Virus record (IMG/VR): IMGVR_UViG_3300040802_000094
Span: 20,956-84,955 of that record
Direction: 5' to 3' (one strand)
DNA: 64,000 bases
Source of the DNA: a virus
A program made the position numbers and the translations under genes. The notes below the pieces were generated by a model. It made no database searches. It was not told the origin of the DNA and saw only the letters and a list, made by a program, of their open reading frames with translations. Within the stretch, counting starts at the first letter, position 1. The number at the start of each line of letters is the position of its first letter. Below, piece by piece: positions 12,000-63,700 of this stretch.

Positions 12000-12015
12000 A
12001 GGATGCTGCGCCACC

Positions 12016-28186: not shown

Positions 28187-28408
28187 ATGAAGGTTAAAGT
28201 TACTGCCGAAGGCAGAATTTACTACTCCGGCCCCAACGGGGATAAAACGATTCCCCCCGAACTTTTGGGGTACCCCACGGACGACCTTCGTTACGACGAA
28301 GGTTCGAGCCAATTTATTTACGACCCAATTCCAAAAGACCGATTTCCCCGACAACCCATTTCACCCTCGGAGATCGATCCGGCCCTCCACCCAGAAGGAC
28401 TGCCATGA
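28187..28408 (+). CDS. Small protein of fibre operon, 73 aa
   Basis: A short beta-prone N-terminus (MKVKVTAEGRIYYSG) followed by an acidic, Pro-rich tail. It starts one base after the previous stop and overlaps the next start by ATGA. Possibly a fibre-assembly accessory; no family recognised. Confidence 0.65.
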   Translation: MKVKVTAEGRIYYSGPNGDKTIPPELLGYPTDDLRYDEGSSQFIYDPIPKDRFPRQPISPSEIDPALHPEGLP

Positions 28409-39159: not shown

Positions 39160-39222
39160 CCGATCGTCCTCAAGTAAAACCAAAATTACTTTACAAGTAG
39201 CTATACAAGACAGCAAATACTG

Positions 39223-39282: not shown

Positions 39283-39504
39283 ATGCTACAGCAGATCGTG
39301 CTTCAACTCCCCGGGGAACTCCTCGGGGAGTTAGCCGCAGCCACAGTTATGTGGTTAGTTTTGTCTGGTTTTCGGGAGATCCGAAAACCAGACAAAACTA
39401 AGGAGAAGGAGATCGATGCCCTGGCCTTCCTCAGACAAGTGACATTGTCCGAGGAAGACCAAAAAATTCTCCGCCAAATGGCGGAGAAATATAAAAAAGA
39501 CTAA
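39283..39504 (+). CDS. Small membrane protein, hairpin-saturated gene
   Basis: Protein of 73 residues with one hydrophobic segment (LLGELAAATVMWLVL) then a charged C-terminus. The DNA is mostly hairpins: 39305-39332 (9-bp arms), 39355-39401 (21-bp perfect arms, 5-base loop), 39426-39457 (12 of 13 pairs) and 39467-39488 (9-bp arms). Together they cover well over half of the coding sequence. It is bounded by a 25-bp convergent terminator. Function unknown. Confidence 0.6.
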   Translation: MLQQIVLQLPGELLGELAAATVMWLVLSGFREIRKPDKTKEKEIDALAFLRQVTLSEEDQKILRQMAEKYKKD

Positions 39505-39557
39505 AAGGAAGAAGCCCCGGATAGAGTGTGTATCTATCCGGGGCTTCTTCCTTTTAG
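39501..39557. terminator. 25-bp convergent terminator
   Basis: 39501-39525 pairs perfectly with 39533-39557 around a 7-base loop. It includes the stop codons of both flanking genes. Confidence 0.9.
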
Positions 39558-39841
39558 TATGAAATACAGGCGATCGCGCGATCGCGAATCAGAATCTCAA
39601 AATCCTCTTGAGATTCTATCTTTAGACCGTCTATTGCTTCCGCCATAAAATAGATCGTCTTCCTTTCGGGAAACCAATCCATTCTGACCAATAACTCATC
39701 CGTTATCGGATCGATAGTTTTCGAGATTTTTACGAAAACCCCGAAAGCTCTCAAATGGCTTTCTAGTTCGGAGAAAGCTTTTTGCATTTCTCCTTCTAGC
39801 AAATAAAGAGCGGAGATTTTCTCCGCCAAAGAGACTTCCAT
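39554..39841 (-). CDS. Unknown hairpin-rich gene, 95 aa
   Basis: An N-terminal helix with heptad-like Leu (EKISALYLLEGEMQKAFSELESHL), then beta-prone FVKISKTIDPITDELLVRMDWF. Inverted repeats in the coding DNA include 39591-39617 (10-bp arms), GTTTTCG/CGAAAAC at 39717-39739, GGAGAAA/TTTCTCC near 39770-39793, and GCGGAGA/TCTCCGC near 39811-39827. Function unknown. Confidence 0.55.
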   Translation of the reverse strand: MEVSLAEKISALYLLEGEMQKAFSELESHLRAFGVFVKISKTIDPITDELLVRMDWFPERKTIYFMAEAIDGLKIESQEDFEILIRDRAIACISY

Positions 39842-39896: not shown

Positions 39897-39939
39897 AAAA
39901 AAGGGAAGGCGTGAAATCGTATCACGCCTTCCCTTTTTT
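39897..39939 (-). terminator. Strong terminator
   Basis: 18-bp stem ending in GTGA/TCAC, with an A run and T run flanking. It ends the 40192 gene on the reverse strand. Confidence 0.8.
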
Positions 39940-40192
39940 AGGTTTCTACCTCAGCTCGACATTCCCTAAGCAGTGACACGAGTCGGATATAATTCTCCTC
40001 CTCGTCGTCGCAGAGAGGAACACAGCTCTGGCGATCGAGAAGCATCGCCAGATCGCAGGTAAAGAGATCTCCTCCCCCCAAAGAGATGACAATCACGTCA
40101 TCTCTTTGGGGAGGGATAAAACATTCCGTTTCACCCAAAATGACGTCCAGGAATGCCTTGATTTTGTCAATCATTTGTTTACAATCGCTCAA
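39938..40192 (-). CDS. Unknown hairpin-rich gene, 84 aa
   Basis: A short protein with a helical N-terminus, a CFIPPQRDDVIVISLGGGDLF strand-turn and an acidic C-terminus. Coding DNA has a 15-bp perfect stem (40076-40090 with 40097-40111, 6-base loop) and a 9-bp stem (40027-40035 with 40044-40052). Divergent from the 40279 gene. Function unknown. Confidence 0.55.
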   Translation of the reverse strand: MSDCKQMIDKIKAFLDVILGETECFIPPQRDDVIVISLGGGDLFTCDLAMLLDRQSCVPLCDDEEENYIRLVSLLRECRAEVET

Positions 40193-43330: not shown

Positions 43331-43714
43331 ATGGATTTAGTGCAATTTTTTGTGTTTTCCGCGCTCGCCTCTGGCAAGTGTCAGTTCGACCCGATTGAAG
43401 GAGCCTACACTTTTCGAGACGCGGAAGGGGAAAACGTCTTTGTCACGATCTCCGACGACGGATTCTTCCTTGGGGAGGATGGCGCGATCGTGGAAGTGAA
43501 AAAGGTCGGCGACCTGTTGGCGGCACTCAATCCAAGGAAGCATCGAGAAGAAAGGATCCTTTCCGCTTACCACTTGTTGAGCAGAAACAACCCTTGCGTA
43601 TTGTTTGCCGACCTCGAAGCAAAAGTTGGCAAAAAAGATGCCTGGTGGAGTATTTCCACCAGCCCGCCACTCCTTGTACTTTCCGAAGAAAAAACGGTAC
43701 GAAGAATCCGCTAA
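43331..43714 (+). CDS. Unknown protein, 127 aa
   Basis: Beta-prone N-terminus (SGKCQFDPIEGAYTFRDAEGENVFVTISDDGFFLGEDGAIVEVKK) then helices (HLLSRNNPCVLFADLEAKVG). No Shine-Dalgarno is next to the ATG. It overlaps the convergent methyltransferase gene by 4 bases. One clear hairpin lies in the coding DNA (43642-43662, 8-bp arms). The GCAATGGATT string at its start recalls the operator pair upstream. Function unknown. Confidence 0.5.
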   Translation: MDLVQFFVFSALASGKCQFDPIEGAYTFRDAEGENVFVTISDDGFFLGEDGAIVEVKKVGDLLAALNPRKHREERILSAYHLLSRNNPCVLFADLEAKVGKKDAWWSISTSPPLLVLSEEKTVRRIR

Positions 43715-44835
43715 AAGAGGGATAGCTGCTTGACGCCACTCTCCCGCTTTCGGACAAGGAGAACTTCTTGTTTTCGAGGGCGACGCTCGACCTTACTACT
43801 CCCGCCAGCATTCCCCGTGGAAACCGTTACAGTCTTGTAGTGGATCTCCCAATCCTTTTCGCTGTAGAAACGAAGGATCTCCGGGTCGGGGTAGTAACTC
43901 AGCACGATCGCCCCTTTCAGTTGGTGCAGGCACGAGGCAAGGCGCTCGTGGTCTTCCATCGTGAAATTCCCCCCTCCGTAGTATCGCTCCTTCCCAAAAT
44001 AGGGAGGATCGCAATAGTGTAGGGCAACTGGAGAATCCCATCGCTTCAATACTTCCTCGAAGTCGCCGTTTTCGATATAACAGCCTTTGAACGACTTCGC
44101 CGTTTCGAGTAACTTGCTCGACAGCGAATCCCATTGCTGAGGCTTGTCCGAGGAAGGGTGGCTGACACCCGTCGAAGCCGACCACCCCGAGTCGCCAATC
44201 GTTCCCGTAAACCCTTGATTGGCGCAAGTGAGATAGCGCCTTGCTTTTTCCGTGCTAGAAGCAGAGATTGCCCTAAAGAACTGGCGGCCTGCCTCGTTGA
44301 GGAAGGCGGGGGAGTCTATTGGCGATCGCCTCAATACTGTGGAAGCTTTTAAGATCCTTTCGGGCAGCGTCTCCCATTCGTGAACCAGGTGGTCTTTAGG
44401 GCGATCGCCTCCATTTTTGGCAATCCTCCAACTCTGCCGGGGATCTCCCTTGAAAGACTGCGTGCAAGCGATCGCGTACTTGCGGGCGCGATCGATGTCT
44501 CCGAGTTCGAGAGAGCCAAAATCTTTACAAAGGGCATGTTCTTCTCGACTGTACGGGGTTAGGGCGATCGCTCTTGCCAAATGCTCGGGCAAATCTCGAC
44601 ATACCCGAAATAGGTTGACAATATTGGAGTCGCGATCGTTGAGGACGATCCGAGGTAGTCCGTTTTTCCTATTTCCTCTTTCAAAGAAGCCTTGAGATTG
44701 TAGGTAGAAAAAAACGGCTGCCGATCCGCAGAAAGGTTCGGTATAAACCTCAAAAGAAAAGCGACCGATTTGCTCCGAAATCCATGGAGCGAGTCGTCTT
44801 TTCCCTCCAATTATATTGATAATAGGTTTGGCCAT
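43711..44835 (-). CDS. D12-class adenine DNA methyltransferase
   Basis: Protein of 374 residues. GGKRRLAPWI near the start, the SAM-binding YTEPFCGSAAVF (31-42) and the catalytic DPPY (276-279) mark a Dam/D12-class N6-adenine methylase. Residues about 175-235 form a Ser-rich insertion relative to short members. The last five residues are QLSLF, a sequence known as a beta sliding-clamp binding motif. It probably methylates the phage genome against host restriction or to adopt host marks. It lies outside the hairpin-rich pattern. Confidence 0.85.
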   Translation of the reverse strand: MAKPIINIIGGKRRLAPWISEQIGRFSFEVYTEPFCGSAAVFFYLQSQGFFERGNRKNGLPRIVLNDRDSNIVNLFRVCRDLPEHLARAIALTPYSREEHALCKDFGSLELGDIDRARKYAIACTQSFKGDPRQSWRIAKNGGDRPKDHLVHEWETLPERILKASTVLRRSPIDSPAFLNEAGRQFFRAISASSTEKARRYLTCANQGFTGTIGDSGWSASTGVSHPSSDKPQQWDSLSSKLLETAKSFKGCYIENGDFEEVLKRWDSPVALHYCDPPYFGKERYYGGGNFTMEDHERLASCLHQLKGAIVLSYYPDPEILRFYSEKDWEIHYKTVTVSTGNAGGSSKVERRPRKQEVLLVRKRESGVKQLSLF

Positions 44836-44896
44836 AACTATCTCTTGATAACATTGCTTTCATTATCCCTAAAAGGCTTAAGAAACAAAAAAAAGA

Positions 44897-44913
44897 CCCG
44901 CCATCATGGCGGG
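44897..44913 (-). terminator. Terminator of 44923 gene
   Basis: CCCGCCAT and ATGGCGGG form an 8-bp stem with a 1-base centre. An A run on the plus strand supplies the U run for the reverse transcript. Confidence 0.75.
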
Positions 44914-44922
44914 CCTTTTACT

Positions 44923-45738
44923 CTACCAAACTACAGGAAGTAAGAAAACCTCATCTTCCTCGGTCTTTACCATCAGGTGATGGTAGTCTAACCCGAGGGA
45001 GATGTCTTCGGCTTCCAAGCCTAGTGATATCCCTGGCTTAAGAGAAAACCACGGGGTTTCTCTTAAGCCAGGGAGGCAATTCTTCAGACGAAAGAATCGC
45101 TTCTCCTCGGAGGACAGGAGGATTCTTCCCTCCTGCCTTTTGACCTTGACCTCTCCCTGAAGTAGATACCTCAGAAAAGAAGCATCTACTTCCCCGAAGG
45201 GCGGGGGGAACGGGGGGCGCAAGCTATCCCCATAGAAGGGGAGGGTTACGATCCTCCGCCTCCCCTCTCTCCAGTCGCCGACAAAGGCGAGAGTCCCTTC
45301 TCGAAGGAGGACGGATACCCTCTCTCCTCCTTCGGTCGCCCAACCCAGAACGCTGGGGTCGGGTAAGGAGATAGACGGCCAGGAGGCTGGCCAATCTTCG
45401 ACTGACCAGAAACTCCAAGTTCCGTGCTTTCGGAACCCGGTCCAGGGGCCGAGAACCCCTGCCTCTCCGGAAAAGAGGCACTTTAGTCTCTCGTCCTGTA
45501 TATACAGGCGAGGTGGGGAGGAATTCCCCGAAGAACGGGGGAAATCCTCCCCAAACTCTTCAAGCTTTTCAATCTCGGCGACGTCGATATTATCGATGTC
45601 GGGGACATCTTCATCCCCGACGTATTTCCCGTCGTTGAGGGACGCAATCGACGCAGGGATCTGCGTCGATTGCGTTTTGAATACGTAATCACCCTCTTCC
45701 TTGGAGAGGGTGATTACGCCTGCTTTTAGCGTTATCAT
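44923..45738 (-). CDS. Unknown hairpin-saturated gene, 271 aa
   Basis: AAAGGACAGAG precedes the ATG. The N-terminus is acidic (DDVPDI-like Asp/Glu clusters), the middle Trp/Pro-rich (WTGFRKHGTWSFWSVEDWP) and the C-terminus beta-prone. The DNA is packed with perfect inverted repeats: 45031-45073 (17-bp arms), 45302-45334 (10), 45598-45621 (8), 45642-45675 (15, 4-base loop), 45684-45718 (14), plus many of 6-9 bp. Divergent from the 45856 gene. Function unknown. Confidence 0.55.
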   Translation of the reverse strand: MITLKAGVITLSKEEGDYVFKTQSTQIPASIASLNDGKYVGDEDVPDIDNIDVAEIEKLEEFGEDFPRSSGNSSPPRLYIQDERLKCLFSGEAGVLGPWTGFRKHGTWSFWSVEDWPASWPSISLPDPSVLGWATEGGERVSVLLREGTLAFVGDWREGRRRIVTLPFYGDSLRPPFPPPFGEVDASFLRYLLQGEVKVKRQEGRILLSSEEKRFFRLKNCLPGLRETPWFSLKPGISLGLEAEDISLGLDYHHLMVKTEEDEVFLLPVVW

Positions 45739-45823
45739 CTCTGTCCTTTGATATACATAAATTCAGTCTACCATATATTCGGCACGCTAAAAATATTAAT
45801 TATATTGGCATACGTAATCATTG

Positions 45824-45829
45824 TATAAT
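45824..45829 (+). promoter_or_regulatory. -10 element TATAAT
   Basis: TATAAT 27 bases before ATG 45856. A 7-codon leader (45836-45859, MQSKEVR) overlaps that ATG. A well-spaced -35 is not evident. Confidence 0.45.
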
Positions 45830-45855
45830 AATTGTATGCAATCAAAAGAAGTAAG

Positions 45856-47256
45856 ATGAACACACACATTAAAATGGACACAGAGGATCTAAAAAAGATC
45901 TTCTTTTTGGCGAAACAGGGGGGACTCTACTCCCGACTAGGAGTAGAGTCCTGCCGCATGTACAGCAGGACTCTACTCAGCAGAGTGGAGATCCCGATCG
46001 AGGCGGCAGATCCGGCGGTGTCCACCTCGATCGCCTTATCGCAAAAGCAGACCTCTCTGCTTTTGCGATACCTACAAAAGCAGAGAGGAGAGGTGACGGT
46101 CTGGTTTTGTCCAGATCGTCTCCGCCTCTCCTGGGATGAGGGGCGATCGTCGATCGCCCTCATCCCAGGAGAGGAAGCAGCCTCCTCCCCCGACTTGAGG
46201 GGGTCAAAGAGGCTTCCCTTGGGAGAGTTCGACGGCTACGCGATCGTCGAACTCTTTCGCGAAAGCCCCCTGGACGGGGGGGAAGATTTCCTCCTCTTCA
46301 AGGAAGAGAAGATCTTCCATGTCCAGGCTTCCGGCAATACAATTGCCCGGAAGCGTGGGATCAGGAGAATAGGGTCTCACCGGAAGCCCCTTCCGGTGAG
46401 ACCTCTAAAGGTACACCTCCCTAAAAAGAGCTTCTGGGGAGGTGTTAAACGCTTCCTCCCCACGGAAAGAGAGGTCGGAAGGGGTGCCGACGTGAGGTGC
46501 TTCCTCTCGCTCCTTTCCACGGAGGGGGCAAAGTATATGGAGATCCTCCTCTCCCGACTTCAGTCGGAAGAGATTGAGGTGGAGGGGAGGATCCTCCTCC
46601 CCATTGGAGCGGAAGAACCCTCTCTTCCACCAGTAATGCCCTGGACGGGGGGGATCGACTTTTCTACCGTCCAGGGTAAAGGCTCCGGCTTTGCCTCGAT
46701 CGCAAGGATGCGAGAAGGGGCATGGTTGGAGTTCTCCGAAGGAGCCTGCCTCCTTTTTTCGGAAAGAGGTAGCGTCACCCAGGAGATCCCAGCAGGCAAA
46801 GCCTGGGGAAAGATCCCCGGGAGGTCTTTCTTACCTTTTTGGGAGGTAAGAGAGATTGCTCGGGAGGACGTAGTCTCCTTGAGGTTCGCGTCCGAGGACG
46901 CGAACTCTATCGTTGCAGTCGAAACGCCGACTGCAACGATAGAGTTTTGGCACGCCGACGAACACACATTCCCCCCTCTTCCCGAGGAAGAGGTCTTGGC
47001 GGTCGAATTCCTCGACGAAAAGGGATGGATCGCACTATCCCCCAATGGGGAGATCCTTTGTTGGAAGGGGGAAGGATACCCCGTCGAAAGGGGGGCATGG
47101 CTCCAGTCCCCGACTCATTTCTCGATCGCGATGCACCTCGTCAAGATCGCGATCGAGGCAGGGCAAGAGGGAGAAATCCCTTACGACCTCCTCGAGGTCC
47201 TCAAAAGAAAGGTTTCTTTTGAGAAAATAGAAGATTTTCTCATTTTTGAGACCTAG
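45856..47256 (+). CDS. Unknown hairpin-saturated gene, 466 aa
   Basis: Beta-rich protein (RVEIPIEAADPAVSTSIALSQ...VTVWFCPDRLRLSWDEGRSSIALIP). Its strand pattern weakly recalls sliding clamps, but this is not established. The coding DNA carries a chain of inverted repeats: 45922-45951 (12 bp), 45941-45978 (14, sharing an arm), 46037-46070 (15), 46052-46088 (14, sharing an arm), 46125-46174 (24 pairs with one bulge), 46373-46403 (14), 46884-46905 (10), 46903-46946 (19), 47121-47157 (12) and 47200-47223 (11). Confidence 0.6.
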   Translation: MNTHIKMDTEDLKKIFFLAKQGGLYSRLGVESCRMYSRTLLSRVEIPIEAADPAVSTSIALSQKQTSLLLRYLQKQRGEVTVWFCPDRLRLSWDEGRSSIALIPGEEAASSPDLRGSKRLPLGEFDGYAIVELFRESPLDGGEDFLLFKEEKIFHVQASGNTIARKRGIRRIGSHRKPLPVRPLKVHLPKKSFWGGVKRFLPTEREVGRGADVRCFLSLLSTEGAKYMEILLSRLQSEEIEVEGRILLPIGAEEPSLPPVMPWTGGIDFSTVQGKGSGFASIARMREGAWLEFSEGACLLFSERGSVTQEIPAGKAWGKIPGRSFLPFWEVREIAREDVVSLRFASEDANSIVAVETPTATIEFWHADEHTFPPLPEEEVLAVEFLDEKGWIALSPNGEILCWKGEGYPVERGAWLQSPTHFSIAMHLVKIAIEAGQEGEIPYDLLEVLKRKVSFEKIEDFLIFET

Positions 47257-47262
47257 TTTCGC

Positions 47263-47299
47263 AAGCCCGGCGGCACAACATCATCGTGCCGCCGGGCTT
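47263..47299 (+). terminator. Terminator and start of next leader
   Basis: AAGCCCGGCGGCAC pairs perfectly with GTGCCGCCGGGCTT, followed by TTTGG and a TATAAT (47304-47309) for the next gene. Confidence 0.8.
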
Positions 47300-47335
47300 T
47301 TGGTATAATATAAGTAATCTTTATATTAAAAATGT

Positions 47336-48652
47336 ATGGAAGACTTATTAGTTTGTGAGTCCTGGAGCTTTCTGTTTTCAGCAAAAACGCTGGAAACAGC
47401 ATTCAGGGCAATTCCTTTCCCTACAGATGTACTGATAGGGAACGACAGTATCGCCTTTGCTAAAGGCGGTACTGTCGCTATTGCCCACGGGAGTGGGATG
47501 AGTCCAGCCACAATCTGGTCTCAACTCACGCAAGGAAGCCGCTTCCCTTTGCTCGCGTATTCCCAGTTTTTTGAAACGGGAATACGAGAGCAAGATGACT
47601 CCGAGACCCAAATCGACTGCTACTGGATCGATTCGGGTCTCGGGGAGGGACTGGTATTCCTTCCCCAAAATGAGAATCCTATCGTCGAGGAAGAAATCGC
47701 GAGCCTGGGAGTAGGCTCACAAAAGAAAATGCCGAACTTCTCCTCGATCAAAAAGCTAGGGAAACGGCTCCCTAGCGAAACAAAGGAAGTCGTACCCTTG
47801 TTGAGAAAGATCTGGTTTCCGGCCTCGTCGGAAACCTCAAGCGATTCAAGGGTGATTTTGTCGATAGGCAAAAAAATCACCCTCCATCTGGGATGGGGGA
47901 AAATCAGTATTCCTTGCTCCGACTGGAGGTCGGATCCAGAAGACCGGACAGAGGAATGGGAGGTTGTCGATCCCATTCCTCTGAGTTACCCCGAGATGGA
48001 GGAAGTTTTCGTTTTTGGCTACAATGTTGTGGCCTCGGGGGAAAATCTGACGGTCGCAAAGGAAGCGATAAAAACCCGTTCCTTTACGACAAAAGAATAT
48101 CTTTTTGAGTGGGAAGACTATCAGAGGTTCTCCCTCGAAAAGGTGTGGGAGGCGATCGCCGAACTCCCGGGAGACGAAGTCGAAGTCTCGTTTTCCTCCC
48201 GAGGCCACCTCCTCCTCACCTCGGAGGGGGAACAAAAAAAGATTCGATCGAATCTTCGACCGGGCAAGCCCTTTATCCTTCCGGAGGGCAAAGCCCGGAT
48301 CGACTCTATTGCAATAGAGTCGCTATCGGAATGCGATTTCGGAGAAAACCCGGAAATTGCATTCCACCCAGACAAAAGTCTGTATTTTCGGATCTTTGCC
48401 GAAAGCACAGACTTTGATGGAGAATTTTACCCCCCTCTGCCTGACAGCCCGTTCCAGATCTACGTAGATCGGGGACTCCTCGACGGAACGGGGGGGTCGC
48501 AAGCTTTGGTCTCGAAAATGGAGGCAAGGTTGGCGGATGCCCCGCCTTCGAGATGGAAAGAGAGCATCGAGATGGCTCTCGAAGGAAACCCCGAAGGCTG
48601 GAAGGATATACAGGATTTTTACTGCGATTGCAGACGCCTGCAATCGCAGTAA
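47336..48652 (+). CDS. Unknown hairpin-saturated gene, 438 aa
   Basis: An acidic, beta-rich protein (DGEFYPPLPDSPFQIYVDRGLLDG, TLHLGWGKISIPCSDW). No family recognised; the size and style resemble the preceding gene. Inverted repeats in the coding DNA include 47443-47477 (16 pairs, one U-G), 47549-47593 (15 of 16), 47601-47643 (15 of 16), 47814-47836 (8), 47849-47883 (11), 47949-47983 (13), 48301-48322 (perfect 22-base palindrome) and 48621-48650 at the very end. Confidence 0.6.
   Translation: MEDLLVCESWSFLFSAKTLETAFRAIPFPTDVLIGNDSIAFAKGGTVAIAHGSGMSPATIWSQLTQGSRFPLLAYSQFFETGIREQDDSETQIDCYWIDSGLGEGLVFLPQNENPIVEEEIASLGVGSQKKMPNFSSIKKLGKRLPSETKEVVPLLRKIWFPASSETSSDSRVILSIGKKITLHLGWGKISIPCSDWRSDPEDRTEEWEVVDPIPLSYPEMEEVFVFGYNVVASGENLTVAKEAIKTRSFTTKEYLFEWEDYQRFSLEKVWEAIAELPGDEVEVSFSSRGHLLLTSEGEQKKIRSNLRPGKPFILPEGKARIDSIAIESLSECDFGENPEIAFHPDKSLYFRIFAESTDFDGEFYPPLPDSPFQIYVDRGLLDGTGGSQALVSKMEARLADAPPSRWKESIEMALEGNPEGWKDIQDFYCDCRRLQSQ
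48621..48650. repeat. 30-bp palindrome, variant copy 3
   Basis: ACTGCGATTGCAG and CTGCAATCGCAGT form 13-bp arms around ACGC. It is related to the TTGCAGACGTCTGCAA palindromes but lies in coding sequence at the gene's 3' end. Confidence 0.7.
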
Positions 48653-48655: not shown

Positions 48656-48685
48656 AAAGACACCACTGAAGTCAGTGGTGTCTTT
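48656..48685 (+). terminator. Terminator after 48652
   Basis: AAAGACACCACTGA and TCAGTGGTGTCTTT form a perfect 14-bp stem followed by a T run. Confidence 0.8.
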
Positions 48686-48739: not shown

Positions 48740-48774
48740 AAGCCCGCACCCCGGCATTACTGGGGTGCGGGCTT
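48740..48774 (+). terminator. Terminator-type hairpin in leader of tape measure
   Basis: AAGCCCGCACCCC and GGGGTGCGGGCTT form a 13-bp stem, then TTTCTTTTTTTT and the ATG at 48787. Confidence 0.75.
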
Positions 48775-48786: not shown

Positions 48787-51700
48787 ATGGCGGATCAATA
48801 CGGTATCCAGGCAACTTTTCTCTTTGACGTCCCGACCGAAGCGTTTTCGACGATCGATCGGGTCATTTCTCAGTTGCAGGAACTAGATCGCGTCGTCCGC
48901 CAGATCGAAGGAGGGATGTCGGGCGGCGGTTTCGGCCAACAGCTCAAAAAGTCCATGGCTACCGCATCGAAGTCGGTGACAGGCGTGGGTCGAGCCGTCG
49001 GCACGATCGCGGACGAAGCCAAAGAAGCCAAGAAGCGACTGAAACCCCTCAAAGAAGAGTTTGCCGCGATCCGTGCGGAAGCGCGCAATGTCGAGTTCGG
49101 CGAAGACATTTTCGACGAGAAGAAGATAAAACAGGCGGAACGAGCGATCCGGCAGTACAAGAGATCCCTCGATCGCCTCGGAGAGTCCGTCCGGGGATCG
49201 AGTGCGCCGGAGCGAAAATTTTTAGCCGACCTGCAAAAACAGAAGCAGGTTATGGATTCGCGAGTAGAAATGCAGCGAACCCAGCGTACGGCGGCGCGTG
49301 CGTCGCAAAGGATAGGAGAATTCGCGGCGCTAGAAGGTGCCGGAAAGGCGATCGCCGCACCCCTTACCGCGATCGCCAAAGACGCGATCGCGGTATTTGC
49401 AGGTTTCGACGCGAAGATGGCCGGAGTCGCCGCAGTGAGCGGAGCGAAAGGCGAAGATCTGAAAGCGCTGCGATCGCTCGCCAAAAAAATGGGCGCTTCC
49501 ACCAAATTTTCAGCCTCCCAGGCGGCGGAAGCTCAATCTTTTCTAGGGATGGCCGGATTCAAGACCAATCAAATCCTGGAAGCGCTACCCGCAACGTTGG
49601 ACTTGGCTGCAGCCGGGAACTTGGATTTGGGGCAGGCTGCGGACATCGCCTCCAACGCTATTTCCGCCTTCGGCCTGAAAGCGGAAGAGACGCGCCGGGT
49701 TGCCGACGTGATGGCGAAGGTCGCGGCGAGTGCGAATACCAGCGTTTCCCAGCTCGGCGAAGCCTTCGCCTACGCCGCACCTGCGGCGCACGATTTTGGG
49801 ATGCGGATGGAGGAAGCGACTGCCCTGCTCGGCGTGGCGGGAAATATCGGCATTCAGGCTAGTGCGGCAGGGACTGCCCTACGGGCGGGGGCAATCGAGC
49901 TGACTAAAGCCGACAAGCAAAATATGCTGTTGGAAAAGCTCGGCGTAACGGTCGTAGACGCGGAGACAGGAGTCGCGCGGAATATTATCTCGATCGTCGG
50001 GGATATCCGCGATTCCATGCGGACTCGTTTTAGGGGAGAGAACTTCCTGGCAGAGATGGAGGCGATCCAGGAAAAAGTTAAAACCCAAGGCGGGAATATC
50101 GAAGAAGAGTTGAAAAAACTGGAGGAGAAATACCCGCAACAGGCCGAAGGCTTGACGACCCTCGCCAATGTATTCGGCAAAACGGCGGTGTCGTTTTGGA
50201 GCGGCCAGGTTTCTCAATATGAAGTTCTCGTTCACGACTCCCTCCAAGCCCTGGCGGCAACGGTGGATACGAACGCCCTCGAAGAGGTGATGTACGCTTC
50301 GATCGAAGGATTGCGCGAGGCCGAAGGCAAGGATCTGTTTGGGAAGCTTGCGACCCAGGCCGGATCCTACGAAGGAGCCGTCAAGCTTTTACAGGTCGGA
50401 CTGAGGGGACTGTCCGAGTCCGGAAGGGAGACGACGGGCGCCGCCGAGGCTATGGCGAAAATCATGAGCAACAACCTCGAAGGCGCTTTCGTTTCCCTCG
50501 GATCGGCGATCGAGGGATTCAAGATCGCTTATATCGAGCCAATTTCTCCTTTAATTGCGGGGGTCGTCAACGGAATTACGGAGATCGTCCGCTTCCTGAC
50601 GCAACTGCCCGCTCCAATTCGCTTTTTGATCGGGATTGCCGGAACCCTGGCCGTGACGCTCAGTGCCTTGGCGATCGCCGTCGGGGGAATGGGTATCGTT
50701 CTCTTCGGATTCTCGAACGCAATGGCGACGGCCAAGGCGGCGACGATCGCCCTCAACGGCGCCGCCATCCCCCTGACGGGATTCTTTGAGAAAGCGATGG
50801 GAGCCTGGGAAGGAACTTCACCGATCGAGACGGCGTTGAAAACGTCGAGTTTTGCCGTCGAAGACTTTCAGGAGGCCGCCACTCTCGCCTTCTCTGAGGT
50901 ATGGTCGGGACTGAAGACCTTCGCCGTGCGGACGAAAGCGGCGACCTTCGCAATGGCTCAGAATTTCTTGATGGTTTCGCGAGCTTTTGCGACGTCTCCC
51001 CTGGGTATCAGTATTATCTCGATAATCGCGCTCAACGAATTGATGCGGCGGGCAGTTCCCGGAGTCAACCTGTTCGCCGCCGCCGCCAGCGCCTTGGGGG
51101 GAGTTCTCGGTTTTGTTTCGGGGATCTTCCAAGGACTCGGGGACGTTGTAATGGAGGTAATCGGAGATAACCTGAAAGCCGTTTTTGCGGTATTTTCGAC
51201 TCCCCTGTTGCAAGCGGAAGACTCGATCGTTTCCTTTTTGTCAGCTTTTCGGGACTTGAGTACGGTTGGGCGAAAAATCGGGCGAGACTTGGGGCGAATC
51301 ATCCTCTCTCCATTCACGTTGCTGAAAAATACGATCTCCGGCGTCCTCGGGATCGGACTCGATTTCATCTCGGACAGGCTGAGCCTGATCGCGAGCGTCA
51401 TCAAATTGTTCACCGACTTCATGACGGGACGGATGGCGGGTCCCGAAGATTTCGTCAAGAATCGCTGGAATGTCGTCGGACAGATGGCAATGCACGTCCT
51501 CGCCTCGTGGCGAATTGCCGTCGGCATTATCCAAGGGCTGTGGAACTTTCTCGTTTCGATCGCCATTCGAGTGGGGGGCGCGATCGTCGGCGCCCTCAAT
51601 CACGGCGCCGCCGACGTCACCCGGATAGCCTGGCAGAAGACCGCGATCGCCGTCCTCGAATATATGAAACAGATGGCGATCGCGGCGTGGGAATTCGGCA

Positions 51701-54700
51701 GGCAAATTGCCATTACCCTTGCCGGACGCGCGGTCGGTTTCGCGATCGCGGCGTGGGACGCCCTTTCCGAGAAACTGAAAGTTGTTGCCGCGATCGGACG
51801 TAACGCGATCGCGGGGCTGGAGATGCCAGATTGGGTCGCTTCCGCGTGGACGGCGATCGCGACTTCCATTTCTTTAGTCGTGGAGTCGTTTAGATCGCTC
51901 AAGATTCCGGACTTGGAAGGAATTGATTTTTCGAGTCTGGGGTTTTCTCTTTCCGGAGTGGGGCTGAGTTCCAAGGCGTTCCTCGACTGGGTTGCCAATG
52001 CCGCTTCCGAAAAGTTTGCCCTCTTGGAAAGTGCGGCGATCTTCGGGTGGTCGCAAATGCAACGAGCCGGGTCGCTGACTGCGGATGCGTGGCGGTCGGT
52101 CGAGGCTACGCTATTTTCGGTGTGGCAAAACATCGCGAATTTTGCGTCTCGGATAGGAGAGGCGATTGTCGGCGCCCTCAATCACGGTGCCGCCGACGTC
52201 ACCCGAGCGGCCTGGCAAAATGCCGCGATCGCCGTCATCGGATACATGAAGCAGATGGCGATCGCGGCGTGGGATATGGCGATGGAAATCGTCGCGCCGA
52301 TCGCGACGATCGTCGTTACGGAGGTTCAAAAGTCCTGGGCGGAAATCGCTCGGAATTTTGGGGATATAGGGAAAGTCGTCGAATCCGCCCTGCCGGGAAT
52401 CGGGATTCCGACTTGGATTGTCAACGGATGGAAGGCGGTCTCCACGGCGATCGCCTCGGTCGGCGACACCCTGGCATCCCTCCGCGTCCCCAGCTTCGGA
52501 GGTCTCGATTTTTCTCGGGCCAGCGTTTCTTTGGCGGGAGTGGGACTGAGTTCCAACGCCGCCAAAGACGCGATCGCGGCAACGGCGTCGGAAGGCTTCG
52601 ACAAAATGCGCGGCGCCGCCATCTCAAGCTGGGAAGAAATGGATCGGGCGGCGGAAAGAACCGCTCAAGCGTGGAAGGATACCCGCGACTCCTTCCTGTC
52701 GGTTTGGCAGTTCGTCGCCGGATTCGCTTCTCGGATCGGAGGGGCGATCGTCAACGCCCTCAATCACGGCGCCGCCGACGTCACCGAGGCGGCATGGATT
52801 CGTGCTACTGCGGCGATCGTCGAAAGCATAAAAGGGATCGTAGGGACGGCGATCGCGGCGAGTTCGGCAATTGTCGGTTCGATGGCGATCGCCGTTTCGG
52901 AGCGACTCGGAGATGCCTGGACGTTCGCCTCGACGAAGGCAGGAGATCTGTCGGCTGTCGCGACTTCGGCTGTCGCGGCGATGGAAGTCCCCCAATGGAT
53001 TCTCGACGTATGGCACGCGATCGCCGACGCCATCTCTTCGGCGGGGCAGGCGTTGAAGGCGATCGAGATGCCCAATTTCGGGGGTCTCGACTTTTCCGCG
53101 ATCGGTTCGTCGCTACTGGCAAGCATTGCGGGACTTCGATCGAATCTCTCTCCGATAACTGCGGGAATCGCCCCGACTCCGTCCTCGACCCTCGTCGCCT
53201 GGGGGGCGAAGGATGTCATCGAGGAGGGCTGGGATCGTCCTCATCGAGCGATTGACGCGATCGAATCCCGAAAAGTCACCTACTCGAAAAACTTCAACCC
53301 CGAAACGGGAGCCATCATTATCCCGTCGAACCCTATCGGGGACAAGCTGTGGGAATTTCGGGAGAAGCTTTCCAACTTCCCCGCCTGGCTCGAAGGACAA
53401 AAAAGGCAACTGGAGGAAGAGAAACGGATCGAGGCGGAACGCAGGGAGGCCAATCGCTTGAAGCGAGAGATGGCCAAACAACAGGCGGCGGAAGAGCGGG
53501 CGAACTCTCCCAATTTTTTCCAAAAAATGTGGATTCGGGCGGTGGGGGCGATCGAAGTCAAAGCGCGGGCGGTGGGCGATCGCGTCTCGAACTTTATCTC
53601 CGAAGCGGCCTTGGGACTGTTCGGGCAGGGGACGATCGATTTCTGGACGACGCAATTCGACCTGTACGGACAGGCGATCGACAACGGAGTCGCCAAGTAT
53701 CGAGAAATTATCGACGTCGCGCAAGGGGTCGAGGGGGCGACTGCCTCCTGGCAACAGAAGTTGGTGGCGATCGTCCTCGCGATTAAAGAGATCTTTACGT
53801 CCCTCAACCAGGTTCGCAAAAACTTCATGGCGGCAGAAGAAAGCTTTATCGAGAAGTATTTCGAGCATTTCTCCGTTTCCGCCATGATGGCGTCCGTCGC
53901 CGCTTCGATGCCGATGGGGTTGCTCGGCGCGAAGCTGCCGGGACTGAAGATTCCGGGAGGACTCGACAAGATGGCCAGCGAGACCGTCCGCAAGGTCGGC
54001 ATGGGAGAATTCTCCCCGATCTTCGAGGCGATCGAGTCTCCCGGCATCCCTACGGGACTCATGCGAATGCTGCCGGGCATCGTCGCGATCGCCACCTCCC
54101 AAGGATTCTTCGACGGACTGAATCAAGGGGTCTCTCACTTCCTGGAAAATAGCGAGATCCACGCGAAGGCATTTGCAAATAATTTCTTCAACGCCCTCGG
54201 TCCCGGACTGTCCCAGGTCCTCGACCAACAATTCGGGCTAACCCGGGAAAAGGTAGACACCTTCCTCACGGATCTGTTCCAAGGGGGGCTGTTTACCTGG
54301 AAGGAAGGGGGAGAAGGCTGGGAGGCCGAGTACTCGGTTATGACGAGCGGCTTGCTGGAATACTTCCAGGGGGTCGGCGAAACCCTCAACGACGTATCGG
54401 AAGGATTCAAGCCCATTTTCCACGCTTTTGCCACGTGGAAGCCTATCCCGTTCCTGCCCCCGATCGCGGAACTGCTCGTAGTCGAAAGCTTTATTGCGGG
54501 CATCGGAGATTTGCTGCAATCTCCGGCGCTGAGGGGGATTGGGAAATTCGTCCTCGTCACCCTTCCCGGCTCGATCCTCGCCGTAGTCGGAGCGATCTCC
54601 GGCATGGTGCTGGCGGCGATCGCCCTGATCGGGAAATTGGCCATTTCTGCCCTCAAGGCGCTCGGAATCCTCAAGGATCAAACGAAGGAAGCCGGGGGGG

Positions 54701-57700
54701 TTTTCGTTCGGGCGATCGGAGTCGCCTTCACTTGGATAGAAAAACTGATGGCACGAATCCCCTACGTCGGCAAGCATCTCGCAAAGGCGATGCGATGGTC
54801 GTTCGACCTGTTGGGGAGGGTGTTCGACTACCTCGGGCAGAAAATGCCGATCGTTTTCGGCCAAGTCCAAAAATATGGCGGCATCGTCTGGAACGTTTTT
54901 CAGACGTCGATTTTTCCCGTCATCAAAAACTTGACCGACGAGATGTTCTCCGGGGCGAGATACTTGTTCGACAAAGGATTCCTCCCTTTGTTTAAGTTTT
55001 TGCAGCTCATTCTCGGCCCCAAGCTGTGGTTGCTGTACATCCGAACGAAAGGACTGAAGGGGGTCACGAAAGGAATCAATCCGATCGATATCGGCATTAC
55101 CCTCGGAGAGGGAATTATCAACGGCATCAGCCATGTCCTGACGGGGAGACCCGCGAATTTGATTCGCACGCTGATCGGGGCGATCGTCGGCGAAGCCTTC
55201 CCGATGGACGTCCTCCAGAGCAAGATGCGAAGCGCCAACATGATTTTGGCAACCGTGCAGCAGCAAAAGCAATTTATGCGTACGGGGAAAGTGCCAAAGA
55301 TCGAAGGAATTACCGTTCAGGTTCTCAACACCTTGCGACTGATCTCCCCCCTCACGCAGATCGCGGCGCGGCTGACTCTGACTCTGTCCATGTGGTACAG
55401 CCTACTCAAGCCAATTACTCCGGGGATGCTCTTGGCGATCCGCCACTGGGAAGAAATTCACTACAAGATTTCGGTAATCTCTCCGGCGTTGGGGATCCTT
55501 CGCTTTATCTTCGTCGATACGATCGACTTGGCGATCGCGGCAGGCAAGGCATTTTACCAAGCCTTCCAGTTTATCGGCTGGGCGGTCGGCGGTGCCACGA
55601 CCCAAATTGTCAAAGGGATCCAACTGGTCATTTGGGGAATGACGATCGCGGCGCGGGCGGCGACACTCGCGATCCTCGTCCCGATCCGCGCCCTCCTGGA
55701 GGGACTGCGACTGGGGATGCTGGTGTTCCGCGAGCTGACAAAAACGGTCGGGTCGGTCGTGCTGGATATCAAGAACAACCTAGACGCGATCGTCAAGGAT
55801 ATCGGAGAAGGATTTTGGACCTTCTTTAAAGAAGGGGATATTCGCCCGTTTGCGAAGGCGATTTTCACTGCGATATTTCGGATCGGCAAGATCTCCTTAG
55901 ATATGGCGTTCCTCTATTTCGGGATCCTTCGCCGCGAATTTATCATTTGGGCTTTCATTACGGGGAAAGCGCTGTTCTCGACTTTGGTCAAAGAAGGCCC
56001 CACGATCGTCTGGAGGACGCTCAAGTTTATCGTCAGCTTGACTTTCGAGGCGATCTCTTGGGTCGGGAGACAGATCGCGTCCGCGATCGATCGCGCGTTC
56101 GCGGCGATCCGAAACCGCATCGTCGCTCCGACGATCGCCGCCGTCCTCCACTTCCACAAAACACTTACGGATACGATTCAAGCATTGCAGGGAGCGAGCC
56201 GACCCGCCGCCGCCTTGCAGGCCATCATCCTCGAAACGCTCGCCGCCGTCGCCGCCGTCGCCCTGTTATTTCCGAAGTACGGCTTGCTCTCAAAAACGGG
56301 AGCTTACGCCTGGGCGCAATCGCTATTCGCGCAAAAAATGAGCCTCCTGACCTTGCTCAAGATCGGGGGGCCGATCGGGTTTTTTGCCTTTGCCGCCTAC
56401 GAAGCCCTGACTGGATTCAAGGAGATCGACGCCGTCCTCAACAAGATCGGCCTGAGCATCAAAGACGTCGAGAACCTGTTTCTTCGCCTGCTCAACAACT
56501 TGACGGCAAAACCGGACTTCGGCCTTGCCGAAAGGATCGGCGGATTTTTGAAAGGCGCCATTCAGATTTTCCCCATCGTCCTGGGAGCGCTCACCGTCTT
56601 CGGGGCGCTGATCAAGAAGGATATTTTCTTCGGAGTCAAACTCGTTTTTACGGCGATCGGGAAGACAATCAACGCCGTTTCCCATTTGGTATTTCTGTTC
56701 CGATCGATCAAGGAATTGATCTTCTCGATCTCCCTCAAACCTCAAGTCCTCAAAGGGATTCACGTCGCGCGATCGCTGACCGGGACTTACGGCAGCGAGG
56801 AAGAGAAGCAGACCCGAGGCGCGGAAGCGGCGATGGCCAAAGACGCACTGAAGCTCCAAAAAATAGTGCGTAGAAACCAAGACCGACTCGACACGCAGAA
56901 GATAATCCAGCAAGCAAAACAGCATCCCGAACTGTTTGGAGACCTCACCCGACGGGAGCGAGTTCGCAAGGGAGGGTTCCTCGGCTTCGGGGCTTCCTTG
57001 AGAGAAGAAACGGTCTTGTCGAACAAGGGTCACCAACTGCTGGCCAAAATGCGCCAAGGCGCCTACGAAACGGGATCGGGAGAATTTGCGGATGCTTCGC
57101 TAATCGGCCACGCGAGCAAAATTGGCGGCACGCTGATCGGCCTCGCCCCCGAACGATTGAGGGAGCTGGCGAAAGAAGCTTCCCCGGATCTCGAAGACCT
57201 CTCGAACGCACTCGAACGGATGAAATTGCAAAAAGTTTCAAAATCCGAAGTGCAGAAAATGTACGTCGCCAACTTGGTGGGATTCGGGGGGCAGGGGAGA
57301 TCGGGGGAAACCCTCAACAAAGAACAGATCGTATCCAGGCTGGTGCAAGGCGAGAAGTCGCCACTCTTCGTTCGGGAAGGACAAAAGTTGTCGCGCAAAA
57401 AGTTTTTGAGGTCTCAAGGGGTCGATTTGGGCGACGAACCGTATGGCGAACACGGTCCTTATACGGGGATTCCCGAAGCAACGATCGAAAAAACCGAGCC
57501 TTACGAGCGACTTTACGCTTATTTAAAAAATGCGAGCGGGATCCCCCTACAGTACGAATCGACTTTTTCGGCGATTCAGGATCAAATACAGCAGGGAGGC
57601 GCGATCTCCAACTGGAAATTCCAAACGCAAGATACAATCCTCGACATGATCTCCGACCCGCAGGAGAAAGGAAAGATCGTCGGGGCGATCGATCGCGCAC

Positions 57701-60700
57701 TCGCTCGTATCAAAGAAGCGAACTTATACCAAAGTTCGCCGACGCTCATCCCTGCGGGAGATGAATCGACTGGTATTGCAATGGGCTTCCTCGCGGAAGA
57801 GGTGTCGAAAGCGTACAAAGATCTCTCGATCGAGGAGATGGGGCGGATGACTCCCGCTCACTTCGAGAATCTCAAGAAACAAGTCGAGCAAACGATCGCG
57901 CAGGATGTCACTCAAGCTACAAATCGGGCTTTTTCCTCGCACAAAGTCGATCCGGAATTCATCGCGATCGTCAAAAGCTCCAAGGTAAAGCCCGGGATTC
58001 TGGGGATTTTCGACCCCGTATTCAAGACGCTCAAAAAATCTTTAGGTGGGGCGCTAGACTCCGTCATCGATACCGTCCCCTTCCTCGCCCAAATCGTCCG
58101 AGGAAAAGAAGCTCGCTTGAACGCCCAAAGGGCAGATTCGATCAACGCCCGTATCAAGGCACTTCGAGACGAAAAGAGGATAGGGAGAAAAGACGTCGAT
58201 CGCATCCGCGCCTTGCAGCGCGAAGCCAATTTATCCAAGGATCGATCACGGCAGTCCCGCTCCTATCGCGGTATCGCCCAAATCCTCGAAGTCGATCCCG
58301 CAGCGATCGCCAATCCCTCCTTATCCTTGGAGGACATGACCTACGTCAAAGAGCGTCGCAACGAGATGATCCGCGAATTTCGCAGGCAGCAGGGCAGCAT
58401 CCAGACCGCCTTCACCCACGAAGACCTGACGATCCCGTTCGACGACGAGAAACTTTCGGCGATCGACAAGCTGATCGAAACGGGGTACTTCGATCCGAAG
58501 GCGTCTTACGTTACCAAAAAAGTCGGCAACAAATCCATCTCGGAAAAGTGGCTGACCAGTCTCTCCAAGGCATCCAGCCTCCGGGAATCGGAATTAATCG
58601 AGATGTTTTCCGCAGAGGCGATTCTGAAATCGAGACAGAGAAGCCTGAAAGAGCAGATCTTGATTTTCACGGGACTCAAAAAAAGCGAAATCAACTACGG
58701 CAGACAACTCAAAGAACTGACCAACAACCTCCAGCGACTGCAACGCCTCCACGAAACCAAGCAACTGAAAGCGAGGGAGCGGGAGCGAACCTTACTCCTC
58801 CAACGCGAGAAGGCATTTTCGGAGCATTTCAGAAAGCTCGGAATCGGGGAACAGTCCTTCTTTGCAGGACTCGAACGAATTCAAAGAGAGCGACTGCTCG
58901 ACTTTAAGCGAACCGGAAACCTCGAAAAGGCGGTTCCCAAAGGGGAACGGCAGCAGTTCAATCAAATCATCCAGCAGTTGAGCGGACACGGCACCGCCAA
59001 AAGCTTCATGGCAGCCCTGGCGGAGAAAAAAGCTACGGCAAGCCCCGAAGTCCTCAAAAGTATCAAGGAGATCGAAGAGCAGTTCGCCGCGATCGATGTC
59101 AACCCGCAGATATTTCAAAAGCAGAAGAATCGTAACAGACTGATTGAAACCCTGCGCCAAGAAATCTCCGACGCAGGGCTGACGACGGGGCCACAGCAAA
59201 ATCTGCAGGCAGCACAGCAGACAATAGCAAGAATAGTTACAGGTTGGGGCGACGTCAGCGAGCAAAAAGAATACTCGCGGCTGTTTTATCAATTCGCGGT
59301 CAAGGGAAAAGAAACGATGGCGATGGCCGACGCCGAACTGGCGGAAATGGCCAAGAACTTGAAACTCGTCGATAACTTGGCCGACGAAGCGGATGCGGCG
59401 GACGCAATGAGGGAATTCGGAACTCGCAGTCTGAGGTCGTATCCGAAAACCTTTGCGGATAGCTTGGTCGATTTCCAGAAATCGGTACAAAAGATCTTCA
59501 TCACTGCCGACCTGAGCGTCAAGCGCATCTTCAAGGAGATGTCAAACGTCAACATGCTCGGGTTTCACCCCCTCCGAAAAGTCTCGGACTTAATCCGCCA
59601 CCAGTTTTACAGTCCGATCCACAATTTATTCGTCGGGGTCAATCGCCAATTCGAGAGCGCGATCGCCAAGATCGGACAGCTCAATATCGAATCCAAGCGA
59701 AAAACAAAAGACTTCTTCGTCAATTTGCCCGGCGTCAAGCAAGTACTGGACGTGCGGAAGAGTCACGAGCAGGAAGCGGGCAGGAGCCTCGAAGCCTTAA
59801 TCAAAAAGGTGGGGGTCGGCAGCTTGGGCGAGTTCGAGCGTAACTTCACCAACGCCCTAAAGGATCCGAATGTCGGCGACAAGAAATTCAAGTCGCGGCA
59901 GGTGAGCGAGATACTGAGATCGATGTTTTTGTCGGGAGACAGGGGGATCGCGGAAGAAATTAGAGGATCCTCCGACGCGGAAGTCAGTGGATCTCTAGAC
60001 GCGGTCGTGAAAGCTTTTGCCCGAACTCTCGAAATCAGCGAAACGGAAGCGCGGCAATTGTTTGGCAAAGACGAGAATACCAAGCTGCTGACAAAGCCAC
60101 TCAAAAGTCTCGGACGAAAATACCTCGAAGCCGTCACGGTCGAGCCGATCAAATGGCTTTTCCATGCGATTCCCAAAATTCCCGGACAGATTATGGCGGC
60201 TCCGTCGAAAATCAAGGCGGGAATCGAAGAGATCAAAGCAATCCCCGATCGCACCACGTCGTGGATGACGGGAATCGCGGACTCGATTTCGTCCGCCTTC
60301 CGAAAGCTGTCGGAAAACGTCAACAAATCCGTCAGTAAGGTGCAAGGGGCGACTCGGATTAGTTGGGGCGATCGCCTCAAAAACTTTTTTATCGGAATCG
60401 GCGACTTTTTCCTATTCGGCAAAACGGCTTCGACGCTGAAGACACGACTCTCCCGACTCCAGAAGATCAACAAAAAGGTCGAAACGAGTACCCGAGCCGC
60501 ACTCGTTGACGGAAAAATCCAGAAAATCCCGCGCTTTCAACCACGGAGGGCAGAGCAGTATCGACAAATCCCGCCGACATACGCGCTTAAAAGTGGACTG
60601 GATCCCCGTTCCGTCTCTCCGGAGGTATTGCGCGCGCTGCAACCTCAACCCACCGCGATCGCGCCCGGACTAGCCCCTCCATCCCCGGGAGGGGCGATCG

Positions 60701-63700
60701 CGCCGGGATTCAAGGTCGTCGCCCCGATGGAAACGATCGGCCTCGCGAAGGGAAGTGTCCTTTCGGGGGGGGAGGTGGTCAAAGGTCGCTACATGCGATT
60801 GTTCGAGGAACAGCAACGGGTCGGCGAACGACTCAAGGCCGCACGCGAGTCGTCGGCGGCGTGGAAAGTCGGAGTTGCCGCGAAGTCCTTGGCGGGAATT
60901 CAAACTGCATGGAAGCAGGAGGCGGCGGGAATCTCCGATCGCGCCCAAATCGAGGCGATCGCCGCGAAATACAAAGAGCAAATGGCGCGAGCGCTCGAAC
61001 CCCTCGACGGAAAAATGCAGGCGATCGCCCGCGTCAGCGCCACGGTTTTGCGAGTGTCGATCGCCGCAGGTCGGGGCATGGGGCGAGTAGCCAAAACCTT
61101 ATTCGGCATGGTTCGAGACCGCGTTCGCGGCATCGGCGAAGTCGTCAACCTCTCCAAGTTTCAATTGCTGCTCGCCAAGCAACGGCAAAAACTTGAAGGA
61201 TTGAAGCACAAAAGGGAAGGCGAACTGCAACTGCGGCGAAGCGGGCGCAACATCACTCCTTTGATCGAAATGGCATCCGCCGCGATCGCGAAACTCGAAC
61301 AGGATATCGAGGGGACGCAAAAGACGATCGCCCGTCTGAGCGAGCAGATGTCGGCAAGACAAAGGGCAGTAGCGACGTTTTTCTCTCAATCGGCGGCGAA
61401 GGTTCGCAGCGCGTGGAGATTCACGACCGGATTCGTCGGAAGCCTGTGGAATACCCTCGTAGGCTGGGCAGGCAAGATCGGTCCGAAGATCCGATCCTTT
61501 CTCAATCACGGCGCCGCCACGGCGACCAAGATCGCCTGGGACGACACGACGGGCGCCGTCAAGCAAGATATGGCCTCGATCGAAGCGCAAGCCAAAAAGT
61601 CGGGGCGGGCGACGGGCGCGGCGATGGTCAACTCCGCCGAACAAGTCAAGAGCAGCCAGTCGAAACTGCTACAGCATTCGATCGGCTTCGCCAATCGAGT
61701 GGGGGGTGCCATCTCCCACGTCGGGAGGGCGGGTTTCGCGGTTGGTTCGGCGATTTCTGCCGTATCTTTCGGCGCCCAACAGGCGGCTTCTTCGTTGGGA
61801 TCCATGGGGATTATTTCGGAGGAGTCGGCAGCGCGATTTTACAAACTTTCCGAAATAACGATGATTTTTGGGGGTATCGGCAGCGCGATCGTCCCGATCT
61901 TCGGAGCGCTGGGGGCGTCGCTGACTGCGTTTGGAAGCCTTGCGGCAGTCGTTTTTTCTCCCTTATCGCTGACGATCGTCGCGGTCGTTGCGGGCTTGCT
62001 CCTACTCAATAAAGCGGTCGAATCGCTGTTTGGCATCAACGTCTTAGGAACGGCGCTCGACAGTGCGATTGCGCCGTTCGGGAGTCAGATCGACTGGGTG
62101 AAAGAAAAATGGGCGTCGCTACAAAACTGGATCGGCGGCATTTGGGCGAGCAAATTCGGCGAAGTCATGCGTCCCTATACGAGACAGATCGTTGGAGCGT
62201 GGCAGTGGGCATCCTCGGCAATCCAAAGCAGCCTGGGTTGGCTGATCCGTCCGGCGACCAGGATCGCGGAAATGTTGGTCAACCTGCTCAACCATAACCC
62301 TACCGAGCGGATTCCGAATGCTTGGGAACATGCCGTCGAACGAATCAAGGACGCCCTGTTCGGGCTTCCGGTCATCGGGGCGCTCGTCGGTGGCATACTT
62401 CGGCATAAACTCGGATTTCTGACGGCGATTCCCCTGACGATCGCCTTCAGGGGGGCGTTGTGGGGACTCGCCAAGACTTTCGTCGGACTCGGAGCCAAAG
62501 CCCTCCCCGTCGTCGGGTGGATTTTTGCCATTTTTAGTGGGATTCGGCTTCTCAATGCCGCGATCGCCAAACTGACGGGGTACGACGCACTGGGTGCGTT
62601 GGGGGCGAAGATGGCTCCTGCGCTGACGGCGATCTCGGAGAGAATTGCGCGATTGAGGTACGACGTCGTCGCGACGTTCGGAGGGATAGCCAGGCAGGTC
62701 GAAAATGCTTTGGGTTGGATTCCGGCTTTCGCCGAAAATGTGAAAAGCGTGCTGTCGAAACTATTTTCGGGGGCGGTACTCGGTGCGGGAGTTACGGCGA
62801 TCGCCTTTGGGGTGAGTCAGCTCTTCAGGCACGCCAATTTGCTGATCGGGTTGATTTCCAAGCTGGGTTTTATCGTCCCCCTCGTCTTCAATCCCTTTGT
62901 TGGAGCCGTGACGGGTATCGTCACGGCGGTAGAGTTGGCCAACGCCGCCATTCGTCACTTTTTCGGAGCCGACTTGCTCCAAGGAATCCACGCCCGGATC
63001 GGCAGCGCCATCGAGCGCGCCGCGATCGCGCCCGTCGAATGGCTTCGCGCGGCTTGGAGTACGACCGTCGAAGCGATCGCGGCCAAAATTGTGGGGCTGG
63101 CGGACTTTATCGAAATCAAAGTTGGAGGCGTCCTCGAATTTCTGTTCTCTCCCGGACGGTGGGTTGCGGGGATTGCCGGAGCGATCGGAGGAGCATTGGG
63201 CTTTGGGGGCGGCAGTGCGGGGGAAGGCGAGGCGCAAAACCACGGAGCAACCGCTTCAGGAATTGCAGACGTCTACAATTTTGCCGCCGCCCGCGTCGTG
63301 AGGGCTTGGTTTGCCACCTTCGACGGCATCAGGCAGGGAATGATGTGGTTGGTGCAACCCGCTCTCGACGTCGCCACGATGTTGATCGACGCGCTCAACC
63401 ACAACCCTACCGAACGCATCCCCGAAGCGTGGAACGGGGCGATCGCCAACATCAAGGAATCGATTTTGGGGCTGCCGTTGATCGGCGGGGCGGTGGGCTT
63501 GGCGATGGGCGAATCCTTGAAGCCCCCGCAGTGGCTCGGAGAAGCTTGGGGTTCGGTCGCGGGATTCTTCGATAAAAAAGAGCAGCCCGAGGTTTCGATT
63601 CCCGAGCCGATAAAAGCGGTAACCGAAGTGGTGACGGAACCCAAGCCCATCGACAGCAAGCCCTTTTGGAGCAATTGGTTCGGCGGGGCGCAGGCCGCGA

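Follow-up and report, generated by a model that had tools for sequence, protein, structure and literature searches.

Inverted repeats set within functional reading frames have their closest precedent in the mitochondria of nematomorph worms, whose genes carry coding palindromes (PMC6649704). Template switching that yields hairpins has been documented in yeast coding genes (PMC8604942) and in RNA genes (PMC8794818). A search of the literature for hairpin tiling of coding sequence in a DNA virus found no case, which is not proof of absence. A first-pass annotation of the viral DNA studied here had reported chained inverted repeats in three genes and added that no described system has this property; given the nematomorph and yeast cases, that last statement is not quite right.

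The window, the whole stretch of DNA analysed, comprises 64,000 nucleotides, bases 20956-84955 of the IMG/VR virus record IMGVR_UViG_3300040802_000094 (84,955 bases). Coordinates are those of the window unless given as record positions, and the basis throughout is this one metagenomic record together with a small survey of other phages. The HIP1 palindrome GCGATCGC occurs 141 times in the window against 1.6 expected, which points to cyanobacteria as hosts. The three genes that carry the chains, here called A, B and C, were each folded at full length and the MFE compared with that of 40 synonymous shuffles in which the protein and the codon counts were kept; stem coverage is the fraction of bases inside perfect stems of at least 8 bp.

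44923..45738, minus strand: gene A, hairpin-tiled ORFan, 271 aa; MFE z -10.5; stem coverage 0.223 versus 0.021 shuffled
45856..47256, plus strand: gene B, hairpin-tiled ORFan, 466 aa, with alternating A-A'-A chains; MFE z -16.5; coverage 0.302 versus 0.024
47336..48652, plus strand: gene C, hairpin-tiled ORFan, 438 aa; MFE z -15.4; coverage 0.176 versus 0.016

The claim that chained inverted repeats fill three adjacent genes was thus confirmed (coverage about 0.22, 0.30 and 0.18, against 0.02) and extends beyond them, as set out below; the judgement that such repeats are not expected by chance was borne out by synonymous shuffles that are far less dense. Perfect inverted repeats occur within the ORFs above chance, as in coding palindromes of the nematomorph type, and folding energy lies far below that of the shuffles, as in coding RNA selected for its structure (the GORS and ssRNA-phage type). 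In the predicted folds about 70% of bases are paired and 79-87% of pairs span less than 60 nt, so that the description "almost end to end" is fair for all three genes. Their reading frames are open throughout, as had been stated, and GC by codon position (0.57/0.43/0.65 and similar) is like that of the virus's other genes, from which we infer that the hairpin genes are translated. Codon-position GC and ORF length led us to reject a structured non-coding RNA with incidental ORFs. HIP1 palindromes were likewise rejected as the source of the stems, genes A and B having none and gene C one. Rfam gives one match in the window, a group II intron located away from genes A-C.

All four inverted repeats quoted in the first-pass annotation (45031-45073, 45642-45675, 46903-46946 and 46125-46174) are present. 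The principal stems, chains and terminators are as follows.

44891..44919, minus strand: intrinsic terminator 3' of gene A
45030..45074: stem in gene A, 18 bp perfect with a 9-nt loop, or a 21-bp arm with a 3-nt loop if one mismatch is allowed
45642..45718: two adjacent perfect stems near the start of gene A, 15 bp (45642-45675, 4-nt loop) and 14 bp
45922..45978: chain in gene B, GGACTCTACTCC, its inverted copy and the direct copy again, forming 12-bp and 14-bp stems with the middle arm in common
46037..46110: chain in gene B, four copies of CAAAAGCAGA that alternate in orientation, three of them near-exact and the fourth imperfect, forming 15-bp, 14-bp and imperfect 11-bp stems with arms in common
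46125..46174: stem in gene B, 18 bp perfect, the enclosed 14-nt stretch pairing further
46884..46946: stem pair in gene B, a 9-bp stem followed by a perfect 19-bp stem (46903-46946, 6-nt loop) in codon phase 3-3
47263..47299, plus strand: probable terminator 3' of gene B, a 14-bp hairpin
48656..48685, plus strand: probable terminator 3' of gene C, a hairpin with a T-run; another at 48740-48774

Thirty-seven stems have 11 or more matched pairs, and 23 of these are perfect. Perfect 12-bp arms number 73 against 0.1 in shuffles, and imperfect repeats are also in excess: 12-nt arms with one, two and three mismatches number 86, 150 and 322, against 3.6, 26.6 and 158. In near-perfect arms A.C and G.T mismatches are balanced, at 29 versus 27 with one mismatch and 86 versus 90 with two (counts from overlapping windows, hence not independent), and distinct stems give 7 versus 5, a small count; G-U is therefore not tolerated above A-C on the RNA strand. 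Because A.C is as common as G.T, nothing singles out the RNA strand as the one that matters, and this equality is expected from the decay of exact copies rather than from G-U tolerance. Exact Watson-Crick arms without strand preference, as seen here, are a mark of template-switch products. Gene B contains eight alternating A-A'-A triples of 8-mers within 90 nt, where shuffles have none, a natural outcome of serial copying. There is no depletion of the most restrictive codon phase, 3-3, which accounts for 13 of 37 stems, among them the 19-bp one. The stems differ in sequence and are not copies of one related sequence, such as a mobile palindromic element of the RPE type. MS2, taken as the positive control for RNA-structure selection, has a folding excess of -0.07 to -0.08 kcal/mol per nt and no perfect 10-bp arms; genes A-C have -0.10 to -0.135 kcal/mol per nt and 12-50 placements of perfect 10-bp arms.

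A scan of the whole record found about 13 hairpin-rich ORFs, genes A, B and C included, all of them accessory genes and lying on both strands. These ORFs and two internal controls that adjoin genes A and C are listed here.

28187..28408 (record 49142-49363), plus strand: ORF of 73 aa whose hairpin excess is weaker; z -3.3, folding excess -0.094 per nt
39283..39504, plus strand: hairpin-rich ORF, 73 aa, with a 21-bp perfect stem and others; coverage 0.342 versus 0.029, folding excess -0.22 kcal/mol per nt
39554..39841, minus strand: hairpin-rich ORF, 95 aa; z -6.8
39938..40192, minus strand: hairpin-rich ORF, 84 aa, with a 15-bp perfect stem; coverage 0.188 versus 0.006-0.010, z -7.7
Record 4132-4491, 6299-6715, 6699-6956, 7488-7748 and 10937-12040: hairpin-rich ORFs outside the window
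Record 7104-7364: weakly hairpin-rich ORF outside the window
43711..44835, minus strand: adenine methyltransferase gene (Pfam MethyltransfD12), control adjoining gene A; folding z -1.0, no excess
48787..64000, plus strand: giant ORF of 5,071 codons without a stop, probable tape measure, control adjoining gene C

Stems of at least 9 bp occur at 6.8 per kb in the hairpin ORFs versus 0.65 per kb in core genes, and codon usage of the two sets matches (RSCU r = 0.93). Little or no excess was seen in capsid, tail, helicase and methylase genes or in several adjoining ORFans (window 38686-39216 and 43331-43714, record 3129-4052); the first 2,997 bases of the giant ORF have a coverage of 0.024 versus 0.011, no notable hairpin excess. 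The trait is thus tied to individual genes rather than to regions. We rejected a mutational bias acting across the region, neighbouring genes being without stems and the intergenic gaps holding, by the listed stem positions, mostly one terminator-like hairpin each.

The proteins show which side gave way. In proteins A, B and C, segment pairs compatible with an 18-bp stem are roughly 7- to 13-fold more frequent than in permuted versions, so that there it is the protein that gave way to the stems. An impression by eye of sliding-clamp-like repeats in these proteins was dropped: pairwise comparison gave no significant kinship among the three, and single-sequence AlphaFold models (pLDDT 36 and 32) were useless for checking the likeness. 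The lone hairpin gene with a known family, at record 10937-12040, encodes a DndB-like protein (Pfam PF14072, E = 1e-34), which like the control proteins has no surplus of stem-compatible pairs over permuted versions; there the stems gave way to the protein. Its stem-coded residues are as conserved as the remaining ones, as if the stems had been fitted by mostly synonymous choice, a pattern resembling selection. Eight DndB homologues keep the protein without a hairpin excess (z +0.2 to -1.3, versus -11.9 in this virus). The stems are thus no conserved requirement of that protein family, an outcome that the first-pass annotation had named as one that would refute its claim; they may still matter in this virus.

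Two paralogues of 86 aa each (record 7104-7364 and 7488-7748), 56% identical, carry hairpins in matching zones; most of the middle stems differ and the 3' stems are common to both. Matching zones with different arms indicate that individual stems turn over as the tendency persists, and structure is conserved neither here nor among the DndB homologues. Double changes in the hairpin zones number 7 versus 3.4 expected. By reading of this one alignment, one hairpin shows 6 of 11 changes in its left arm versus 1 of 11 in its right, and another hairpin is changed in both arms.

Searches by tblastn and with back-translated patterns, and searches of Pfam, PHROGs and PDB sequences, which did not cover all combinations of gene and collection, gave no relatives of genes A-C; gene A has none in Pfam, PHROG, PDB or viral contigs. 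In three distantly related phages, located through a shared motif and read in pieces, we found no homologue of B or C, no listed match to gene A (by ORF-level blastp only) and no comparable set of hairpin-rich genes. Stem coverage exceeds 10% in 12 of 93 ORFs in this virus, versus 4 of about 440, all short, in a comparison set made up of these three phages, one 14.5-kb contig and stretches of six reference phages. The searches gave no close relative for ancestral reconstruction, so that template switching is read here from indirect marks in the record.

Our favoured reading, to which we give a probability of roughly 0.45, is that the stems come from hairpin-templated replication (template switching) and have been retained in particular transcription units. 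As the DNA is replicated, the nascent strand would fold back or jump and copy a nearby stretch as its reverse complement, creating or perfecting inverted repeats in coding DNA. Only a set of accessory genes, which seem to be transcribed separately, would have kept and renewed the hairpins; these genes might tolerate them because many of their proteins are loosely constrained, or might gain from a transcript that is tightly folded and long-lived. The exactness of the copies, their symmetric decay, the alternating chains and the altered proteins argue for template switching as the supplier, and it probably did the copying. That the excess is sharply limited to certain genes, and that the DndB-like protein is well behaved, points to a reason for retention at the level of the gene, which appears to operate per transcription unit, and an excess that ends at gene borders argues against a purely mutational, region-wide process. 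Among the meanings offered by the first-pass annotation, template switching fits best as the stem source, and gene-scale mRNA folding is possible as the reason for retention. Only tentatively do we suggest that the folded nucleic acid has a function of its own, as a transcript that withstands nucleases or as a poor immune guide, and that a chosen set of accessory genes was for this reason driven into hairpins from end to end, the protein being bent to suit.

Selection on RNA structure alone is a serious rival, if on balance a rather unlikely one. Here the mRNAs would have been selected, largely via ordinary substitutions, to fold along their whole length into hairpins that either withstand RNase E and other single-strand nucleases or control translation. 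Such selection would account for an excess that is gene-limited and independent of orientation, for stems fitted to the conserved DndB-like protein through synonymous sites, and for the paralogues' common hairpin zones with some double changes. The folding excess is also slightly greater in the sense than in the antisense strand (-0.110 versus -0.102 kcal/mol per nt), at a ratio near that of MS2, a similarity that makes this measure non-discriminating. However, G-U mismatches are not preferred over A-C, the arms are much longer and more exact than those of MS2, the alternating A-A'-A copies of gene B are unnecessary for structure, and proteins A-C have been changed to suit the stems. If weakly constrained genes gathered hairpins by template switching without benefit, as has been discussed for nematomorph mitochondria (PMC6649704), the result would again be arms that match exactly, symmetric mismatches, turnover of stems and unusual proteins. 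We regard this neutral version as improbable, since adjoining ORFans lack stems yet the conserved DndB-like protein has them, and the related phages have none.

The strand symmetry, the near-complete tiling and the 25-55 nt size of the stem-loops, near guide length, would suit an evasion of CRISPR or Argonaute targeting, in which a 20-40 nt guide RNA or DNA derived from a tiled gene folds on itself and is weakened. The helicase and methylase genes, targets just as good, are nevertheless untiled, and this explanation seems to us very improbable. Least credible of all is an artefact of sequencing, amplification or assembly: the record is a single metagenomic assembly for which searches found no near relative, but the frames are open, codon-position GC is normal, the RSCU correlation with core genes is 0.93, and only genes, of either orientation, show the effect; fold-back artefacts would break frames.

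Such a virus would show that entire coding genes can be recast as chains of hairpins without losing their function, and that protein sequence can be steered by nucleic-acid shape or by a copying error. A bacterial-virus system would be handier than worm mitochondria for asking whether template switching leaves hairpins of this kind behind as parasitic by-products or selection favours them as structures.

Among known systems, the Rickettsia palindromic elements (mentioned in PMC6649704) also place hairpins within open frames, but are copies of one mobile element, unlike the stems of this virus. The coding RNA of ssRNA phages such as MS2 likewise folds far better than synonymous shuffles, with a smaller energy excess and no perfect 10-bp arm, whereas here a DNA virus is concerned and only some of its genes are affected. 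Template-switch mutations (PMC8604942, PMC8794818) make or perfect short hairpins by exact reverse-complement copying and alter amino acids, as here; they have been described as isolated events per gene, whereas in this virus dozens of stems tile whole genes and no event could be dated. Nematomorph mitochondria share with it many inverted repeats in functional ORFs, turnover of individual repeats, overlapping repeats that give competing hairpins and direct repeats, and a proposed origin by template switching. The nematomorph repeats lie in conserved respiratory genes with arms of up to 142 bp, whereas those of the virus lie mostly in ORFan proteins, with arms of up to 21 bp inside ORFs. Long phase-3 repeats are depleted in the worms, where almost no imperfect repeats occur; in the virus phase 3-3 is not depleted and imperfect stems are many. 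The principle is known from nematomorph mitochondria, two features reported there, phase-3 depletion and no imperfect excess, fail here, and the virus also differs from the nematomorph palindromes in its tiling at 20-50 nt.

The tetramer GCGC is strongly depleted in the hairpin genes, the accessory reading frames tiled with perfect stems, including those at window 44923-48652. Six copies were found in 7.2 kb of these genes, against an expectation of ~29 based on the core genes of the same virus and 15 based on the hairpin genes' own synonymous shuffles.

The hairpin-rich set includes a gene of this cyanobacterial virus encoding a DndB/DGQHR family protein (10937-12040, numbered on the whole 84,955-base record). 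Small ORFs that lie in tandem as paralogues, one pair at record positions 6299-6956 and another at 7104-7748, are hairpin-rich as well in both cases. Downstream of gene C, the last of the adjacent hairpin genes at window 44923-48652, one uninterrupted reading frame, 5,071 codons or longer, occupies window 48787-64000 and continues past the end of the record; judged by its position, the product is probably a giant tape measure protein.

The window also carries the following features:

5757-7619, group II intron with its own reverse transcriptase and an HNH-like ORF (Rfam RF00029)
13032-16833, by eye a sensor histidine kinase containing PAS and GAF-like sequence, and two further ORFs

The intron is an insertion within the virus record, with codon usage unlike that of the virus (r = 0.59). 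The kinase is followed, still within 13032-16833 of this phage record, by two ORFs that by eye resemble response regulators.
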